Shown here: piece after piece, positions 13,090 to 22,168 of the stretch | Position numbering within the stretch: position 1 is the stretch's first letter | Layout: the number at the start of each line of letters is the position of its first letter | Source of the DNA: Euzebyales bacterium | GTDB lineage: Bacteria; Actinomycetota; Nitriliruptoria; Euzebyales; JAHELV01 | Assembly: GCA_035461305.1 (NCBI GenBank) | Contig: DATHVN010000010.1 | Location: 1 to 42,533, forward strand | Direction: 5' to 3' | DNA length: 42,533 nt | Program-made: the position numbers and the translations under genes | Notes under the pieces: model-generated | Seen by the model: only the letters and a program-made list of their open reading frames with translations | What the model was told of the DNA's origin: nothing | Database searches by the model: none

Positions 13090-15068
13090 GCGGGACCGTG
13101 GCCTTCGAGGCTGTGCTGGTCGCCAACCGTGGCGAGATCGCGGTGCGGATCATCCGTACCCTCCGGCGCATGGGCATCGCCGCGGTCGCCGTGTTCAGCG
13201 ACGCCGACAGCGGCGCGCCACACGTCAGGATGGCTGACGTCGCCGTCCGCCTGGGCCCGGCGTCACCGGCCGAGAGCTACCTCCACGTCGACCGGGTGGT
13301 CGCCGCGGCGTGCTCGACCGGTGCCACCGCACTGCATCCGGGCTACGGGTTCCTGTCGGAGCAAGTGCGGCTGGCGCGCGCGTGCGCCGACGCCGGCGTG
13401 GTGTTCATCGGCCCGCCGGCGACGGCGATCGAGACCATGGCCGACAAGGCGCGCGCCAGGCAGGTGATGCGCGCCGCCGGCGTGCCCGTCGTGCCGGGGA
13501 CCGACGCCGGCGACCTCGACGACGACGCGCTGATCGCCGCTGCCGCCCGGATCGGGGCGCCGCTCATGGTCAAGCCCGTCGCGGGTGGCGGCGGCAAGGG
13601 CATGGCGGTGGTGTCCGACACGGCCGACCTGCGCGACGCGATACGCGCGGCACGGCGGCAGGCCGCCGCCGCGTTCGGCGACGACCGCGTCCTGCTCGAG
13701 CGGTTTGTCGAACGCCCCCGCCACATCGAGGTGCAGGTCCTCGCCGACGAGCACGGCACGACCCTGCACCTCGGCGAGCGTGAGTGCAGCCTGCAGCGCC
13801 GCCACCAGAAGATCGTCGAGGAGGCGCCATCGCCACTGCTCGACACCGACACGCGGGCGGCGATCGCGGCGAGCGCGGTCGCGGCGGCCGAGGCGTGCGG
13901 CTACCGCGGCGCCGGCACGGTCGAGTTCATCGTGTCCGCCGACCGGCCAGACGCGTTCTGGTTCCTCGAGATGAACACGCGCCTTCAGGTCGAGCACCCC
14001 GTGACCGAGGAGGTGTTCGGCCTCGACCTCGTGGAGTGGCAGGTCCGTGTCGCCGCCGGTGCCGCGCTGCGGTGGGCCCAGGACGATCTGACGCCGGACG
14101 GCCATGCCGTCGAGGCGCGCGTGTACGCGGAGGATCCGGACCGAGGGTTCCTGCCGACCGGCGGGACGGTGCTGGCGTACCGCGAGGCCGACGGCGAGGG
14201 TGTGCGGGTCGACAGCGGCATCGTGACGGGCACGCAGGTCCCAGGCGTGTACGACCCGCTGCTGGCGAAGGTCATCGCCCACGCACCGGATCGCCCGGCG
14301 GCCCTGCGCAGGCTCGACCGCGCCCTGGCCGAGACGACAGTGCTCGGCATGCAGACGACCACCGGCCTCCTGCGCCGCCTGCTCACGTTGGACGAGGTGC
14401 AGGCCGGTGCGCTGGACACCGGTCTCGTTGAACGCCACCTCGATGACCTGCGCGCCGGGCCACCTCCAGACGACGTGCTGGTCGCGGTCGCGATGGGACG
14501 GCTGGCCGCGCGTGCGGCGACCGCAGGAACTAGCACGTTCGACGCCGTCGGCGGATGGCGCATCGGCGAGCACGCCTGGACCACCCTCCGCGTGACGGGT
14601 GGTGAGCGCATCGCGACGGTGCGGGTGCGCGGGACGCCCGACGCCGCTGAGGTCCGCATCGACGGCGGCGATGCCGTCGCGGCCCGCGCCACACTGGACG
14701 GCGTGGACCTCGAGGTCGGCTGGGGCGGTCGTGGCTGCCGGTACGTGTTCGCCGAAACCGACAGCACCGCCTGGATCGGACGTGACGGCGACGCGTGGAT
14801 GCTGCGCGAGCAGGAGGCCCTGGCCGCGGCGCGCCGCTCTGCGACGCCCGGCGGTCCGGTCGTGGCGCCGATGCCCGGCACGGTGACGGCGGTGAACGTC
14901 ACCGACGGCGAGGCCGTCACTGCGGGCCAGACCCTGCTGGTGCTCGAGGCCATGAAGATGGAGCACCGCATCACCGCACCGACCGACGGCACGGTGCACG
15001 GCCTGTCGGTGCGCGCAGGCGACCAGGTCGAGATCGACCGCGATCTCCTGGTGGTGACGCCTTCCTGA
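13086..15068 (+). CDS. Acyl-CoA carboxylase alpha subunit (biotin carboxylase + BCCP)
   Basis: A 660-residue protein that carboxylates its own biotin using ATP and bicarbonate. Order: biotin carboxylase N-domain ([29 protein letters not shown]), ATP-grasp with the Gly-rich loop [11 protein letters not shown] and [32 protein letters not shown], a C-domain ([10 protein letters not shown]), a middle linker domain, and a C-terminal biotinyl domain with EAMKMEH (Lys624 carries biotin). The GTG start overlaps the beta-subunit stop (GTGA), so the two are translationally coupled. The length fits MCC alpha-type subunits. The linker domain (about 450-580) is the least conserved part and should set the partner. 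Confidence 0.93.
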
Positions 15069-15073
15069 CGCTC

Positions 15074-15149
15074 GTCGCGGTGGGAAGCGGACGTCGCGGT
15101 GGGAAGCGGACGTCGCGGTGGGGAGCGGACGTCGCGGTGGGGCGCGTCC
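15074..15149. repeat. 19-bp tandem repeat, four copies
   Basis: Copies start at 15074, 15093, 15112 and 15131 with the unit GTCGCGGTGGGAAGCGGAC; copy 3 has GGGGAG and copy 4 ends GGTGGGGCGCGTCC. The last copy shares TGGGGCGCGTCC with the repeats at 5111-5280. It lies just after the carboxylase operon, in a convergent gap. No gene is visible. Confidence 0.8.
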
Positions 15150-15217
15150 GTCGTGCCTGACCGAACAATGACCACCACCCCGAAGTTCAGCACCAGAGGT
15201 GGTCCAGCGAAGTTCGG

Positions 15218-15271
15218 GTGGTGCTCAGATACCGAGTGGTGGTCAGATACCGGGTGGTGGTCAGTTGGTGA
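15218..15271. repeat. 18-bp tandem repeat, three copies, entering the next gene
   Basis: Units 15218-15235, 15236-15253 and 15254-15271 follow GTGGTGGTCAGATACCGG with changes at the edges. The third copy overlaps the last three codons (ITN-stop) of the minus-strand haloperoxidase-like gene, so the repeat may have spread from its 3' end. A partial inverted copy (GACCACCACCCCGAAGTTC, 15169-15187) lies upstream, so a long imperfect hairpin with 15209-15225 is possible. Confidence 0.7.
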
Positions 15272-16847
15272 TCACCTGGACGCCGCTGCCGTCGAGGTAG
15301 GTCTGCGCGCGCTGCCATACCGCGTAGCCGATGGCCTTGCCGAAGGCGCGGCCGTGCTCGTCGCCTCCCTTGAAGTGGATGCCGCCCCAGCGGCGGGACC
15401 ATCCCGCTTCGTCAGCGGCGTCGGTGAGGGTGTTCCACGACAGCACAACGTCCTTGGCCGGCGTCCCCGCCGCGGTCGCAGTCCTCGGCTCGAACAGCGA
15501 ACTGCCGGCGGGGATGGTCACCTTCGCCCGGAAGGCGTCGCTGCCAGTGAATGCGGCGAGGACCATGTGGGCGGCTGCGCTGAACGTGCTGTGCCCCGAG
15601 ACGTACTCGGGGAAGGGTGGAGTGACGACGTGGGGGTCCTGGTACGGTCTCCACTGCTCGCCGGGGACCTTGCCATAGCCGTTGTACGGGCCGAGCCAGG
15701 AGGTCACCATCTGCCCGGCGAACTGCTCACGGATCGCCGTGATCGGCCGAGCGAAGTCGTACTTGTACTTCGCGTGCCACGCTCCGACGCCGGCGTCCAT
15801 GACGGCGTTGCCGAGCGCGAAGAACAGCTTGACGTCGTCGTCGAGCGAGTGACCCCGCTTGCGTGACACCGCCTGCGCGAGCACCGCCCAGTGGCCGGGT
15901 GGGAACTCGGACTCCGGGCCGTCCGCCCAGTACTCGGCCTTGACCTTCTGCGTGTCGGTGAGGTTGGCCGTGTCCGTCAGCGCCAACGCCGTGTCGCCCT
16001 CGGGATCCGCCGGGCTCGGCGGATAGAACAGCGTGGAAGCGGGGTCGTCGAGGCTCATGGGCTGGCCGGGCGCGCCCGGGTCTCCGAGCGCGAAGCCGTC
16101 GATCTCACCCCACTGCGGCGTCAACGGGCGCTGGACGTTGCCTGCGCACGACGTCGCATCGGGAGCAGGAAGCGGTACGCACAGTGGCTGCCACAGCCAC
16201 GGATCGACGACGCTGTCCCATCCGTTGGCGGGAGTGTAGCCGGTGGTGTCGGTATAGCCATTCGACTGGTTCGACCCGTCGCTGTGGCGGTAGTCCAGCA
16301 CCCCGGCGGCCGCCGCGCGCCCGTCGGCGGCTGGGCCCGTGTCGGCGCCGACCGTGTAGCCGAGCTCCGTCATCTGCGCCACGAAGTCCGCTTCCGCGGC
16401 CGGGAACAGGTCGACGAGCACGGTGTGCGCAGCATGGCTGACCGCCTCCTGCTTGTTGGCGAGGGTGCGCTCCGCCGTTTCACGGCGCCCGAGCCGGGAG
16501 TGCACGCCAACGGCCGTCGCGTCGTACGGCGCCCACGCGTCGAACATCGCGGTGTGCAGCACGCCGATGGCCCGCGACGTGATCGTCGGTCCGGTCGCTC
16601 CGGGGTTGGCCCGGATGGTCTGCAGCAGTTCCTCGTCCCACTTGAGGACGGCGTTGTCGGAGTCACTGGGCGCCAGGCCGTTGACCGGCCAGCGCGGTCC
16701 CGGAAGGTCGCTGTCGTTCGGACCCGACGAACCACCGTCTCCGCTTCCACCGCCGCCCTTGCCGCCGGGCGCGGCCGCTGCCGGCAGCGCGACAGCCGAT
16801 GCGGCCACTGCCAGACTCAGCAACAGGGCAAGTGCCAACTTCTTCAT
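15261..16847 (-). CDS. Secreted vanadium-dependent haloperoxidase-like (PAP2-type) protein
   Basis: A 528-residue protein with a Sec signal (MKKLALALLLSLAVAASAVA, cleaved near AAAAPGG) and a Gly/Ser-rich linker. The vanadate/phosphate site of the VHPO/PAP2 superfamily is complete: K-x6-R-P (Lys360, Arg367, Pro368 in KYKYDFARP), S-G-H (417-419 in EYVSGHSTFS) and R-x5-H (Arg485, His491 in SRRWGGIHF). Members oxidise halides with H2O2 or act as acid phosphatases. Length and the DAWAPYDATAVGV and FPEYVSGH segments favour the bacterial VHPO-like group. ATG 16847 is preferred because it starts the signal peptide and follows GGGGAAGG. The activity cannot be settled by sequence. It lies beside, but is not coupled to, the lasso operon. 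Confidence 0.85.
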   Translation of the reverse strand: MKKLALALLLSLAVAASAVALPAAAAPGGKGGGGSGDGGSSGPNDSDLPGPRWPVNGLAPSDSDNAVLKWDEELLQTIRANPGATGPTITSRAIGVLHTAMFDAWAPYDATAVGVHSRLGRRETAERTLANKQEAVSHAAHTVLVDLFPAAEADFVAQMTELGYTVGADTGPAADGRAAAAGVLDYRHSDGSNQSNGYTDTTGYTPANGWDSVVDPWLWQPLCVPLPAPDATSCAGNVQRPLTPQWGEIDGFALGDPGAPGQPMSLDDPASTLFYPPSPADPEGDTALALTDTANLTDTQKVKAEYWADGPESEFPPGHWAVLAQAVSRKRGHSLDDDVKLFFALGNAVMDAGVGAWHAKYKYDFARPITAIREQFAGQMVTSWLGPYNGYGKVPGEQWRPYQDPHVVTPPFPEYVSGHSTFSAAAHMVLAAFTGSDAFRAKVTIPAGSSLFEPRTATAAGTPAKDVVLSWNTLTDAADEAGWSRRWGGIHFKGGDEHGRAFGKAIGYAVWQRAQTYLDGSGVQVITN

Positions 16848-17095
16848 GGCGTCCAGCCTTCCCCGACGGCCCTTGCCGCCGCATGGATGCCCCCGCAACG
16901 GAGGCTGGAGTGGTTGTGGTCGCGCGCTCGGGGATCAGGCGGCCCACAGATGCGGATCGACGTCGTCCCCGCCTGCCGATCCCTGACGCCCCCCGTCAGC
17001 ACCCGTGATGGTGCGCAGTGCGCGCACAGTAGCCGCGTCGGTCCACCCACACAACCCTGGACGCCCGCACGTTCAGCAGCTGTCAGGTTCACGTG

Positions 17096-18898
17096 TCATC
17101 CAACGTACAGCTGCGTCTCGGCCAGGCGGCGGTACAGGTCGTCGGACTCGACCAGCTCGTCGTGTGTACCGCTGGCACGCACCACTCCGTCCTCGAGCAC
17201 CAGGATCCGGTCGGCACAGGTCACCGTGGACAGGCGGTGGGCCGCCACCAGCACCGTCGTGGTCTGCGCGACCGCGGTGATCGCGTCGCGCATCGCGACC
17301 TCGTTCACGGCGTCGAGCTGTGAGGTCGCTTCGTCGAGCAGCAGGATGCGGGGGTGGCGCAGCAGTGCCCGTGCGATTGCGATCCGCTGCTTCTCACCAC
17401 CTGACAGCGTGACGCCGTGATGGCCCAACGGTGTGTCGAGCCCGTCGGGCATGCGGCCGAGCAGGGTGTGGAGGCGGGTCACTTCGAGCGCGGCGTGGAT
17501 CTCGCCGTCGTCCGCGTCGGGTGCGGCTAGCCGCAGGTTGCTGCGCAGGGTGCCCTCGAGGATCGGCGCGTCCTGCCCGACGTAGCCGATCGTGGAACGC
17601 AGTTGCGGCAACGTCCACTCGCGGATGTCCTGCCCGTCGATGAGGACGGCACCGAACGTCGGCTCGTAGAAGCGCTCGAGCAGCGCGAACACGGTCGTCT
17701 TGCCGGTGCCGGACGGTCCGACGAGCGCGGTGACGCCACCGCGGGGCACCGAGAAGCTCAGGCCGCGATGGACCCACGACCGATCCTCCGCGTACCGGTA
17801 GTTGAACCACACCTGATCGAAGGTGATCGCCGCCGGGTCGGCGGCGTCATCGACCGATGGGAGGGCGACGTCGTCGTCCTCGTCGTCCTCGACGGGCAGC
17901 TCATCCACTTCGCGCATCCGCGCGACGGCGCCCAGCCCGGCCTGCAACTGGGACACGCCGTTGGTGATCGCGTTGACCGGCTCGGCGAGCAGGAACAGGT
18001 AGAGCAGGAACGCGATCAGGGACGAGACGGACAGCGCACCCGTCGTCACCCGCACGCCCCCGATACCGAGCACGGCCAGGAACGACAGCTGCACCGCAAG
18101 GCCGGCGGACACCTCCATCAGAGCCGTCCACTTGGCAACCTCGACGCCGCGACGCCACGCCCGGGTGACCGCCTCGTCCAGCGACGCTTCCTCGCGCCGC
18201 TCGGCGTTGCTGGCCTTGACGGTCCGGAGTGCTGCGAGCGACCGTTCCAGCACCGAGCCCATGCCCCCGACGGCTTCCTGCGACCGCGTCGACGCTCCTC
18301 GGATGCGCGGCACGACGACCAGCAGCGCGACCGCGTTGACTGCCAGCACGGCGACGGTCACGCCGAGCAGGACCAGGTCGAGGGTCGCCATGAGCACCAC
18401 GGCGACGACCATCAGCAGTACGCCGTTCAGCGAGTGAACCAACCCGTAGGTCGTGACGCTCCTGAGCAACGTCGTGTCGGACATCACACGGGACAGCAGA
18501 TCGCCAGGCTTGAGGTCGTCGAGCGCCCCGACCTGCAAGCGGAGCATCCGCCCGATCATCCGCTGGCGGGCGGACAGCACCACGCTCTCGGCCGTGCGTC
18601 CGAGCAGGTACATGCCGACCGCCGTGAGCACGGCGCCGCCCAGCATGAGCAACGTCAGCACGGCGACCGGACCGGCCAACGGGCGCTGCTCCCCGAGTGA
18701 GTCGATGACGAGCTTCGCGACCATCGGCTCGGCCAGGGCGGCCAACCCACCGAGCAGGCTGACGGCCCCGCCGGCGATCAGCGTCCGCAGGTGCGGGCGG
18801 ACCTGGCCGAGCAGCAGACGCCAGGCGCCCCGGTGGGTGAGCGGCGCGGATGCTGGTTCGGCGCCGGCGCTCGGCACGCTGTCCGTCGCTGTCGCCAT
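17096..18898 (-). CDS. Lasso cluster ABC exporter (permease-ATPase fusion), D protein
   Basis: A 600-residue half-transporter of the type I exporter class. The N-terminal part (about 25-320) has six predicted membrane helices, starting at LRTLIAGGAVSLLGGLAAL. The nucleotide-binding domain has Walker A GPSGTGKTT (Lys400), LSGGEKQR (498-505), Walker B RILLLDEATSQLD and the H-loop AAHRLST. It would work as a homodimer in the membrane. It starts 2 bases after the B2 stop (TAG-CC-ATG) and is last in the lasso operon, so its likely job is export of the mature lasso peptide, giving secretion and self-protection. No N-terminal C39 peptidase domain is present, consistent with B2 doing leader cleavage. 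Confidence 0.9.
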   Translation of the reverse strand: MATATDSVPSAGAEPASAPLTHRGAWRLLLGQVRPHLRTLIAGGAVSLLGGLAALAEPMVAKLVIDSLGEQRPLAGPVAVLTLLMLGGAVLTAVGMYLLGRTAESVVLSARQRMIGRMLRLQVGALDDLKPGDLLSRVMSDTTLLRSVTTYGLVHSLNGVLLMVVAVVLMATLDLVLLGVTVAVLAVNAVALLVVVPRIRGASTRSQEAVGGMGSVLERSLAALRTVKASNAERREEASLDEAVTRAWRRGVEVAKWTALMEVSAGLAVQLSFLAVLGIGGVRVTTGALSVSSLIAFLLYLFLLAEPVNAITNGVSQLQAGLGAVARMREVDELPVEDDEDDDVALPSVDDAADPAAITFDQVWFNYRYAEDRSWVHRGLSFSVPRGGVTALVGPSGTGKTTVFALLERFYEPTFGAVLIDGQDIREWTLPQLRSTIGYVGQDAPILEGTLRSNLRLAAPDADDGEIHAALEVTRLHTLLGRMPDGLDTPLGHHGVTLSGGEKQRIAIARALLRHPRILLLDEATSQLDAVNEVAMRDAITAVAQTTTVLVAAHRLSTVTCADRILVLEDGVVRASGTHDELVESDDLYRRLAETQLYVG

Positions 18899-18900
18899 GG

Positions 18901-19317
18901 CTACGGCTCCGTGAACAGGGTGCGGAAGTAGTCCGGAGGGTACGGCTCGTCGACCGGCCTGCCGTCGACCTCGACCCATGCATGCGCACCGAACGGGGGG
19001 ACGCGTCGCGCGCCCACGCACCACGTGACCCCGTGCCCCGCCGCGCGGCACAGCAGCACGACCGCCAGCGAGCGCGGGACGCAGCCCTCACGCGCGGCGC
19101 AGGTCAGACTCACCGCCACCACGTCGTCGCGGGCCGCCTTCGCCTGCTCGTACGACGCCGGCGTCGCGCCCACGGCAAGGCGGCGCAGGACCGCGCGGGT
19201 GCGGGCGGGTGACCGCGTGGCCAGCAGCCTGGCGGCTGCGACCGCCGTCACCGCACGCAGCCGCCGCACGGGCGGCACCGACCGCGGGCGGTGGGCGACG
19301 ACCTCGGGGGTGCTCAC
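18901..19317 (-). CDS. Lasso peptide leader protease B2
   Basis: A 138-residue transglutaminase-like cysteine protease (lasso_B2 family) that removes the leader from the precursor so the new N-terminal amine can be cyclised. The catalytic cysteine is in EGCVPRSLAVVLLCRAAGHG (Cys79), His112 in GAHAWVEVDGRP and a nearby Asp (about 118), the expected Cys-His-Asp order. The length is that of a stand-alone B2 without the RRE part, which here is the separate B1 gene, as is usual in Actinobacteria. The GTG start lies 31 bases after B1. The 3' end is 2 bases from the exporter gene. Confidence 0.92.
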   Translation of the reverse strand: MSTPEVVAHRPRSVPPVRRLRAVTAVAAARLLATRSPARTRAVLRRLAVGATPASYEQAKAARDDVVAVSLTCAAREGCVPRSLAVVLLCRAAGHGVTWCVGARRVPPFGAHAWVEVDGRPVDEPYPPDYFRTLFTEP

Positions 19318-19348
19318 CGGGTCACGCCGCCGCGTCGCGCTGGCACTG

Positions 19349-19609
19349 TCACCTGCTGACCACCAGGCCTGCCGACTCCAGCGCTCCGACCAGGTCGCCG
19401 ACGTCGGTCTGCGCCGTCGCGCGGTCGATGCGATAGGTCGACATCAGCCGCTCGACCGCGTGATCTGTGGTGCCACCCGACAACAGCGCGTCGAGCACGA
19501 GCGCGCCCGTGGGGTTGAGGTTGAAGTACTCGCCCGTTCGTTCGTCGAGCAGGGTCAGCCCGGTGTCCGTCTCTGCCGTCGAGACGCCGTCACACAGGTC
19601 GTAGGTCAT
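19349..19609 (-). CDS. Lasso peptide B1 / PqqD-like RiPP recognition element
   Basis: An 86-residue stand-alone RRE: a winged-helix fold that binds the precursor's leader and presents it to the B2 protease. The segments TGLTLLDERTGEYFNLNPTG (beta-hairpin with the typical G-x-Y-F/x-LN), ALVLDALLSGGTTDHAVERL and TDVGDLVGALESAGLV match PqqD-type proteins. ATG 19609 follows GAGGAAG, which overlaps the end of the cyclase gene, indicating coupling. The precursor leader carries the motif that this family recognises. Confidence 0.92.
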   Translation of the reverse strand: MTYDLCDGVSTAETDTGLTLLDERTGEYFNLNPTGALVLDALLSGGTTDHAVERLMSTYRIDRATAQTDVGDLVGALESAGLVVSR

Positions 19610-19619
19610 GGCTTCCTCG

Positions 19620-21449
19620 TCAGGTGGTCACGTGGGTGCGGTCGAGGCTGCGCAGCCACACCTCGCATGCGATGGTCTGGTACAGCACGCCGGACGGCAG
19701 CCCGGGCGGCAGCGGTCCCGCACAGACGCGCCGTAGCAGATCGACGTCGACCAGTCCGAGCTCGCCCAGCCGCGCGTCGTCCCACAGTTCGAGCACGTCG
19801 GCGCGGTGGCGACGCAACCCGGGCTCCTCGTCGACGGTGCCGTTCGCCTTGGTCGCGCGTTGTCGCGCGTCATCCGGCACGATCCCCCGCATCGCCTCGG
19901 CCAGCAGCGGCTTGTAGCGCCACGGCGTGACGCGCTCGAGCGGTCGCACCGACAGGCCGGCGGCCACGACCGCATCGTCGTAGTAGGGCGCCGCCAGGGT
20001 CAGTGCATCGGCCGCCGCGAGCTGCTCGAATTGCCGCGCGATGCGCGACACGAACCGCATGGCCTCGAGCTCGCGGTGCTGTCCGCGTGTCGGAGCCGAC
20101 GGCGGGAGCCCGTCGGCGGCATGCTGGATCTGCTCGCGTACGGCGTCGGCCGCGCGGAGCGTTGCCCATGGCGGCAGGCGCGGCTCGAACCCCCACGCGA
20201 GGAGCGGCTCGTCTGCGGGCGGCGCGGGGGTGGTGATGGCGTCGGCGACGTCACGCAGCCAGGCGCGGTACGGACGCCGGTCCGCCACCTGGCGCAGCAC
20301 CCGGCGGCGGGGCCAGCGGTACTTCGCGGTGAACCCGCGGAGGTGCCGCGTGGCCGTGCGCGGGTGCGTGCGCAGCGCATCGGCGACGTGCGCCACCGAT
20401 CCGTACAGCAGTTCGTCACCACCGAACCCGACGAGGTGCAGCCGGGATCCCCGGTCTCGTGCCCGCCGGGCGATGGTCAGCCAGCGGTCCCGGTCGACGG
20501 TCACGCTACTGGGTTCATCGAGCGGGGCGACATGCCGACCGAGGCCGTGGTAGACGAGCGGCATCTCGTCCGCCCCGATGACGTGATGCTCGAGATCTCC
20601 GCGTGCGGCGACGGTGCGCTGTGCCCAGGTGACGTCATCGGCCAGCGGATCCGGGCTCGCGGCGGTGTACGCGACGACCGTGCGGGCGGTGTCGGCGGCG
20701 ACGCAGCACACGGCCGTCGAGTCGACACCGCCGAGGTCGCAGGTGGCCAGGTCCTGTCCCCGCACCCGGGCCGCGATGCCGGCGGTCAGCGCCGAGCAAA
20801 GCGCCCTGGCGCCGTCTCGCAGCGGCTGGTCAGCGCGTGGCGGCGTCCACCACGTGCGTTCGTCGCCATGGCCGTCAGCATTGAGCACCAGGCGGTCACC
20901 CGGCTGGACGGCGGAGACGTCACGCCACACGGGCCGACCAGCGATCGGGTACAGGATCGGCGGCTCGAGCAGGTGCAGCGCCAAGCGGTGCGGCTCGACC
21001 GGTGCGTCACACAGGTGGGCCAGCACGTCGGCGCGGTCGGCGGCGCACGCCACGTTCCCGACGCGCGCCACGTACACCCGTCGTACGCCCGTCGCCGAGC
21101 CCTGGATGCCGGTCACGCCGTCGACCGAGGCGGCGAGGTGGACACTGCCCACGACGGAGTCCACGACCCGATCGAGCACGTCGACGGAAGGTGCACCCTC
21201 CACCCGTCGTCGTAGGTCGTCCGCGACCGTGGCGTGCTGTCCGAGGACGGCTACCTTCGCTGTTCCTTCCTCGACCGTCACGACGGTGCCATGCGGCCAG
21301 TTGCCCAACAGCCATGGCCTGCCGGAAGTGTGGTCGATCCGCTGCGATGCGTGAGTATCAAGCCGCGCCCAGACCGTCCGGGCGGCGTCGCAATCCGGCA
21401 CCATCACGAACCAGGACGGTGCTGCGGGGAAGGCGTCGAGACGGACCAT
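19620..21449 (-). CDS. Lasso peptide macrolactam synthetase C (asparagine synthetase-like)
   Basis: A 609-residue protein. It should adenylate the Asp side chain of the core with ATP and close the isopeptide ring with the core's N-terminal amine. The N-terminal half (1-200) resembles a glutaminase domain without the catalytic Cys2 (it starts MVRLDAFPAAPSWF), as in lasso cyclases. The C-terminal half is the synthetase domain: pyrophosphate loop CDLGGVDSTAVCC (237-249), LVGFGGDELLYGS, AAPYYDDAVVAAGL and ERVTPWRYKPLLAEAMRG. The usual SGGxDS reads LGGVDS. ATG 21449 is chosen because AGGAGA lies 8 bases upstream and the residues before it are not family-like. The gene lies between the precursor and B1. 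Confidence 0.92.
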   Translation of the reverse strand: MVRLDAFPAAPSWFVMVPDCDAARTVWARLDTHASQRIDHTSGRPWLLGNWPHGTVVTVEEGTAKVAVLGQHATVADDLRRRVEGAPSVDVLDRVVDSVVGSVHLAASVDGVTGIQGSATGVRRVYVARVGNVACAADRADVLAHLCDAPVEPHRLALHLLEPPILYPIAGRPVWRDVSAVQPGDRLVLNADGHGDERTWWTPPRADQPLRDGARALCSALTAGIAARVRGQDLATCDLGGVDSTAVCCVAADTARTVVAYTAASPDPLADDVTWAQRTVAARGDLEHHVIGADEMPLVYHGLGRHVAPLDEPSSVTVDRDRWLTIARRARDRGSRLHLVGFGGDELLYGSVAHVADALRTHPRTATRHLRGFTAKYRWPRRRVLRQVADRRPYRAWLRDVADAITTPAPPADEPLLAWGFEPRLPPWATLRAADAVREQIQHAADGLPPSAPTRGQHRELEAMRFVSRIARQFEQLAAADALTLAAPYYDDAVVAAGLSVRPLERVTPWRYKPLLAEAMRGIVPDDARQRATKANGTVDEEPGLRRHRADVLELWDDARLGELGLVDVDLLRRVCAGPLPPGLPSGVLYQTIACEVWLRSLDRTHVTT

Positions 21450-21530
21450 CGGCGCTGTCTCCTGGGCACGGCAACGGGCGTGCCGATCCGGTGACTCGGG
21501 TGCGGTGCGACTCTCGGAGGCACTACAGCC

Positions 21531-21577
21531 GCCGGCCGGCGCGTCCGGAATCGAAGGGTGGACGGTCGCCGGCCGGC
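21531..21577 (-). terminator. Hairpin between lasso precursor and cyclase genes (likely attenuator)
   Basis: Perfect 11-bp arms GCCGGCCGGCG (21531-21541) and CGCCGGCCGGC (21567-21577), extended by CGTCC/GGACG (21542-21546, 21560-21564) past a 2-base bulge. It begins 24 bases after the precursor stop on the minus strand. There is no U tract, so it may be a partial terminator or mRNA stabiliser that keeps the precursor in excess over the enzymes (inference). Confidence 0.7.
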
Positions 21578-21600
21578 ACTGTCTCAGGTGGCGCAGGTCC

Positions 21601-21711
21601 TCACAAGGCCTGGTGTCGGACCAGTGTGTCTCGCGGCCCGGACCCACCCAGTCCTGTCAGCTTCTTGAACGAGCCGACACGCGTGAGCGTTGGGCGTTCG
21701 TAGGTACGCAC
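21601..21711 (-). CDS. Lasso peptide precursor (A peptide), 36 residues
   Basis: GTG 21711 opens a 36-residue peptide: leader VRTYERPTLTRVGSFKKLTG (1-20) and predicted core LGGSGPRDTLVRHQAL (21-36). The leader matches the RRE-binding pattern Y-x2-P-x-L-x3-G-x5-T exactly (Tyr4, Pro7, Leu9, Gly13, Thr19), with Thr at -2 of the cleavage site. In the core, Leu1 amine and Asp8 side chain can form an 8-residue ring, leaving the tail TLVRHQAL. A Leu1/Asp8 ring recalls the citrulassin type. An alternative cut one residue earlier would give Gly1-Asp9. AAGGGGG lies about 9 bases before the GTG. The position, first in the operon ahead of C-B1-B2-D, is the usual one. Confidence 0.92.
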   Translation of the reverse strand: MRTYERPTLTRVGSFKKLTGLGGSGPRDTLVRHQAL

Positions 21712-22168
21712 GTCGAGTTGCCCCCTTTCATGACTTCGCGATCATCGCAATGCGTGCGTCCCTACCCGCAGGGATGTGTGGGACAAACACGGACGACCGT
21801 GCACTCAGCCGGCTCGAACGGCCCAGGCCACAGTCGTCGGTCCGGGGTCAGCACGGCGACGGTGCGGCGGCCACTGACCCGTTCGCCATGGTGCGCTCGG
21901 TCTTCGTGAGCACGTCCGGCGTCGCCACCTGCGCGCTGCAACCGCAGGATTAGGTCGTTGCGGCTCTCGCTCCGCATGCGCTGCAGCAGGTTCGTGAACG
22001 ACGTTGCCTATCACAGCCGTGGGAGACCCCGTCGGACGTTGGGGCGTCGGCCCACGTTCAGTCGGCGAGGCCCACACTCGACACTCGGTCCCGTGCGCAC
22101 CGGACACGCCACAGCGGCGGGCCACGGGCACGTCGGTGTGCCTGACAACCATGGTCACCGTTGGCGGA
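21712..22168. other. 457-bp gap upstream of the lasso operon
   Basis: No convincing gene is seen on either strand; the open frames here are Arg/Pro/Ser-rich shadows. It must hold the lasso promoter. On the minus strand TTGTCC (21778-21783) is a possible -35 but no good -10 follows. A short palindrome GCGATCATCGC (21738-21748) lies 27 bases upstream of the precursor start and could be an operator. Confidence 0.5.

Follow-up and report, generated by a model that had tools for sequence, protein, structure and literature searches.

Gene content of the locus

The window (the whole stretch of DNA analysed here, 42,533 nucleotides of contig DATHVN010000010.1 from the Euzebyales bacterium assembly GCA_035461305.1) carries a complete lasso peptide gene set, in which precursor gene A comes first and is followed by C, E, B2, and D on the same strand, with family-level matches for all of them. 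These genes lie in a 7.1-kb block, whose last gene encodes a secreted protein of the vanadium haloperoxidase family.

15040-22166, no strand assigned: block with A, C, E, B2, D, and the haloperoxidase gene (blastn of the window against the congener G308, L077)
21601-21711, minus strand: lasso precursor A, with leader VRTYERPTLTRVGSFKKLTG and core LGGSGPRDTLVRHQAL (PF19397, lasso_leader_L3, and the alignment of relatives)
19620-21449, minus strand: lasso cyclase C, asparagine-synthetase-like, start ATG at 21449 (PF00733, E 2e-28)
19349-19609, minus strand: RRE protein E/B1, PqqD-like, predicted to bind the leader (NF033530 lasso_PqqD_Strm, 101 bits, above cut-off; PF05402)
18901-19317, minus strand: leader protease B2, transglutaminase-like (NF033537, above cut-off; PF13471; 64% identity to the B2 of L012)
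17096-18898, minus strand: ABC exporter D with membrane and ATPase domains (PF00664, PF00005; 66% identity to the D of L012)
15261-16847, minus strand: secreted vanadium-haloperoxidase-family protein (PF22778, E 9e-23; PF21167)

The cyclase also matched the macrolactam cyclase model NF033561 (E 6e-72, under that model's cut-off), and a sequence search of solved structures returned no match for it. In the protease B2, the motifs GCVPRS and GAHAWVEVDG contain the candidate catalytic Cys and His, respectively.

In the congener G308, the flanks of the block are collinear with the window, and window positions 15039 and 22167 map 117 bp apart. The 117 bp there against 7.1 kb here points to a gain in our host or a loss in G308; none of the three congeners searched has the precursor, and a gain is probably the better explanation. 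Contamination of the metagenome-assembled genome by this contig was ruled out: the congeners carry one of the flanking genes with 82-84% identity, which places the contig in the host genome, and their neighbouring genes are collinear. Within the block, close to its left edge, two short tandem arrays were observed at 15073-15141 (19-bp unit, 3.6 copies) and 15218-15264 (18-bp unit, 2.6 copies), both of which adjoin the end of a biotin carboxylase gene.

The precursor and its core

Precursor A is a 36-aa open reading frame with a GTG start, which reads V/MRTYERPTLTRVGSFKKLTG followed by LGGSGPRDTLVRHQAL, and the stretch AAAGGGGG upstream of the GTG resembles a ribosome site. It matches DUF5972 (PF19397) with 46.8 bits (E 2e-12), being the only match to this profile in the host genome, and scores above the cut-off of the NCBIfam model lasso_leader_L3. 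Of the features of class II lasso peptides, a YxxPxLxxxGxF leader, Thr at position -2, and the E, B2, and C genes were found. Compared with its nearest relative, L012 (81% identical overall), it shows 13 synonymous and seven non-synonymous sense-codon differences, plus a swapped stop codon. The conserved leader, the full lasso gene set, and this synonymous excess show that it is not a chance open reading frame.

The core runs L1 G2 G3 S4 G5 P6 R7 D8 T9 L10 V11 R12 H13 Q14 A15 L16, in which Asp8 is the sole acidic residue and Cys is absent. L1, R7, D8, and R12, as given in the first-pass annotation, are borne out in the translated frame.

A lagmysin-like peptide

The nearest relative, L012, comes from an Egibacteraceae metagenome-assembled genome (contig G279:C20) and reads LGGQGPKDTLVKHQAL; both arginines of the window core are Lys in it, which indicates that positive charge is kept rather than arginine. 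The next relatives include L013 from Kibdelosporangium aridum (LGGRGPRDLLFRHQLL), L014 from Streptomyces (LAGSGPKDLLGGKQAL), L016 (LGSRGPRDLLGGKQLL), and others, while the Streptomyces homologue of lagmysin has the core LAGTGSPDLLGGHSLL behind the leader YERPTLTKVGDFQKVTG. The core of lagmysin itself was reported as LAGQGSPDLLGGHSLL (PMC12427821).

Profiles of lagmysin-like precursors and of citrulassins were built without the window precursor and without L012. The window core follows the lagmysin-like pattern LxGxGxxD(L/V/T)L....xL and scored 18.7 bits against the lagmysin-like profile versus -0.9 bits against the citrulassin core profile; for the full precursor the values were 69.9 and 27.7 bits. 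Its lagmysin-like similarity was equalled by none of 20000 shuffled cores. A profile search of 296 Streptomyces genomes (the genus of G128, named Streptomyces from shared loci) recovered ten lagmysin-like precursors, the lagmysin homologue among them, with E-values no higher than 1.3e-13; citrulassins aligned mostly through their leader region, with E-values of about 1e-6 or higher. The peptide is thus a newly recognised lagmysin-like lasso peptide, and its host belongs to an under-explored actinobacterial lineage whose kinship with the Egibacteraceae is judged from the Egibacteraceae relative in the same order; our literature search on lasso peptides in Nitriliruptor relatives yielded nothing relevant.

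The cyclase agrees with this placement. According to a tree of 38 rows, the window cyclase falls, on a long branch, in a 15-row lagmysin-like clade beside L012 and L013 with moderate support (SH-aLRT 90), and outside the citrulassin (CitC) cyclases, which form one clade with support 100; grouping it with them was rejected (AU p=0.023). Its P-loop, CDLGGVDST, has the short lagmysin-type form. DLGG[LV]DS was found in 15/15 lagmysin-like rows and in all rows of the Glu8 'GPER' lasso group, and is one residue shorter than the DLSGGLDS of all nine citrulassin rows; of the four remaining rows, the three with a readable P-loop also have a shortened one. Possibly, the short P-loop marks a clade of lagmysin-like and GPER cyclases (L012-L016, L087-L096), and within the sample examined its form separates lagmysin-type from citrulassin-type cyclases. 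The split between the lagmysin-like and GPER groups has moderate support and is not firm, and by pairwise identity GPER cyclases (50-55% identical to the window cyclase) are as similar to it as lagmysin-like ones.

A GPER-type precursor was also observed in another genome of the same order (G236; L004/L087). Its core, LGTNRGPERVIPLRFSL, differs from that of the window and has a predicted Leu1-Glu8 ring; it is identical to the core of Streptomyces cyaneochromogenes (L028), which suggests recent spread or strong constraint.

Proposed biosynthesis

Taken as a whole, the cluster very probably directs the biosynthesis of a class II lasso peptide of the lagmysin family. The RRE protein E would bind the leader YERPTLTRVGSF, and B2 would cleave after the T-G that precedes Leu1. 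Then, the ATP-dependent cyclase C would close the macrolactam between the amine of Leu1 and the side chain of Asp8, with the tail TLVRHQAL threaded through the ring, and the finished lasso would be exported by D. The arginines are most likely left unmodified, and the predicted lasso has an [M+2H]2+ of 829.958. As to its role, antagonism or signalling is only a guess.

The adjoining haloperoxidase

The haloperoxidase gene product is similar over almost its full length to solved vanadium haloperoxidases (9ptr, E 2e-54; 9l8x; NapH3/NapH1). Besides this family match, seven vanadate-site residues were recognised by eye in comparison with the known site, namely K and R (KYKYDFARP), S, G, and H (VSGHS), and R and H (SRRWGGIHF), and the gene is apparently intact with a complete vanadate site. 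An ortholog sits in the same place by the lasso cluster of the Egibacteraceae relative; the two proteins are sisters (SH-aLRT 99), excluding the paralogs of both genomes, and a second homologue lies on another host contig (C76).

The lasso peptide might accordingly be modified further by the adjacent enzyme, e.g., through halogenation or oxidation of the exported peptide at His13. The position of the gene inside the same 7.1-kb block, its retention in the Egibacteraceae cluster, and the vanadate-site residues, all of which appear present, are in favour of such tailoring. However, the linkage occurs in two genomes only, no haloperoxidase was found beside the Kibdelosporangium cluster or the examined Streptomyces lagmysin-like clusters, and the core lacks Trp and Tyr, the usual targets. 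The haloperoxidase gene also begins about 250 bp past the end of D, so its co-transcription is uncertain. Given two cases and a core free of Trp and Tyr, tailoring is possible but unlikely, and we would give the same low weight to a dedicated secreted haloperoxidase that acts on the exported peptide or delivers an oxidant, in a unit conserved in two genera of one order. A correlation between His13 and the haloperoxidase was considered and found weak, because Kibdelosporangium has His13 but carries its haloperoxidase homologue on another contig. The halogenated lasso peptides that have been reviewed use flavin enzymes, and no description of a lasso peptide paired with a vanadium haloperoxidase was found in the literature searched. 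If true, a haloperoxidase that travels with the cluster would mean new tailoring chemistry, an idea that is testable though unlikely.

Ring topology

For the lagmysin-like core, an eight-residue Leu1-Asp8 macrolactam is the best-supported prediction. Asp8 is the single acidic residue, T-G stands before the core, and the Leu1-Asp8 ring of citrulassin N was demonstrated by NMR and MS/MS (PMC12971885), which together make this ring the best inference. The same ring had been proposed in the first-pass annotation, and the T-G/Leu cleavage context common with citrulassins and the one possible acceptor support it.

Lasso peptides most often begin with Gly, nine-residue rings exist, and Gly sits at position -1 here, so cleavage one residue earlier would give a Gly1-Asp9 ring from the same cluster. 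We regard this as quite improbable: it would place Leu instead of Thr at position -2, whereas all lagmysin-like and citrulassin precursors collected carry T-G ahead of position 1, which is L, I, V, or A, and the ring demonstrated in citrulassin N starts at Leu1.

Citrulassins and deimination

That the peptide is a divergent citrulassin with a drifted core, in which a deiminase encoded at another locus of the genome turns Arg7 or Arg12 into citrulline, is hardly credible, and the citrulassin-like framing of the first-pass annotation fails, since the precursor profiles and the separate cyclase clade place the peptide away from citrulassins. The core does have the predicted Leu1-Asp8 ring, the T-G/Leu context, and G3, L10, and V11 in common with citrulassin A. 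However, Arg9, which directly follows Asp8, is invariant in 34 of 34 citrulassin cores (Table 1 of PMC12971885) and is the residue turned into citrulline (PMC12971885; PMC9266682), and position 9 is Thr here; neither the citrulassin core pattern NDRLxLSKN nor the leader KKAYEAPTL was found. When L1 and D8 were left out, the likeness of the core to citrulassins was equalled by 3553 of 20000 shuffles and is within chance, in agreement with the earlier remark that the core shares little else with them.

The peptidyl arginine deiminases (PADs) that act on citrulassins sit outside the cluster (PMC12971885), so the absence of a deiminase gene from the window, noted before and confirmed by profile search, says little. 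The proposed check of the host genome gave no candidate either: PF03068 had no match in it (98% complete, window included) or in two relatives of the same order with lasso precursors, while the same search found strong matches in other actinobacteria, and PF04371 had no match in the host genome; a PAD gene might still lie in the missing 2%. PAD genes occur in 2/16 genomes of lagmysin-like producers versus 8/27 genomes with the citrulassin pattern, a comparison that gives no support to PAD presence as a sign of citrullination among lagmysin-like producers; of the two lagmysin-like genomes with a PAD gene, one is a 12-Mb Kibdelosporangium, and the other, G644, matches a citrulassin-type leader too.

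Arg12, earlier put forward as the nearest candidate for deimination, is an unlikely site: the nearest relative has Lys at this position, most of the family has Gly, and no PAD was found in the genome. Arg7 does precede the acceptor as described, but this is a trait of the lagmysin-like family, most of whose cores carry K or R at position 7. Membership in the citrulassins was consequently ruled out by the lack of Arg9, the profiles, the cyclase tree and P-loop, and the PAD searches, which removes a false lead towards a citrulassin with a shifted citrulline.

Comparison with known lasso peptides

Citrulassins resemble the window peptide in the Leu1-Asp8 ring predicted for it, the cleavage context, and a related cyclase and gene set. 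They differ in their leader (KKAYEAPTL versus RTYERPTL here), core length (15 versus 16 residues), Arg9 and the NDRLxLSKN pattern, in the SGGLDS P-loop of their cyclases, which are 41-45% identical to the window cyclase, and in deimination, for which no PAD was found in our host.

The lagmysin-like precursors (L012-L016, L045-L052) share the YERPTL leader, T-G before L, I, V, or A, Leu10, and, in most cases, G5-P6-(K/R)7-D8 and a C-terminal Leu. Arg7 and Arg12 are replaced by Lys or Gly in many of them, and most Streptomyces members have GGKQ instead of VRHQ; with LLGG or VLGG in the Streptomyces members, the window peptide departs at residues 9, 11, and 12 (T, V, and R).

Lagmysin of Streptomyces has a 16-residue core as well, with Leu1, Gly3, Gly5, Asp8, Leu10, His13, and Leu16 in common (7/16 identical), and its Streptomyces homologue (L053, L054) agrees with the window peptide in the YERPTL leader, in the short P-loop, and in the clade to which its cyclase belongs. 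It differs in S6-P7 and the tail LLGGHSLL, compared with P6-R7 and TLVRHQAL here, while our host lies outside Streptomyces and a haloperoxidase gene adjoins its cluster. The lagmysin-like group now extends to actinobacteria related to the Egibacteraceae.
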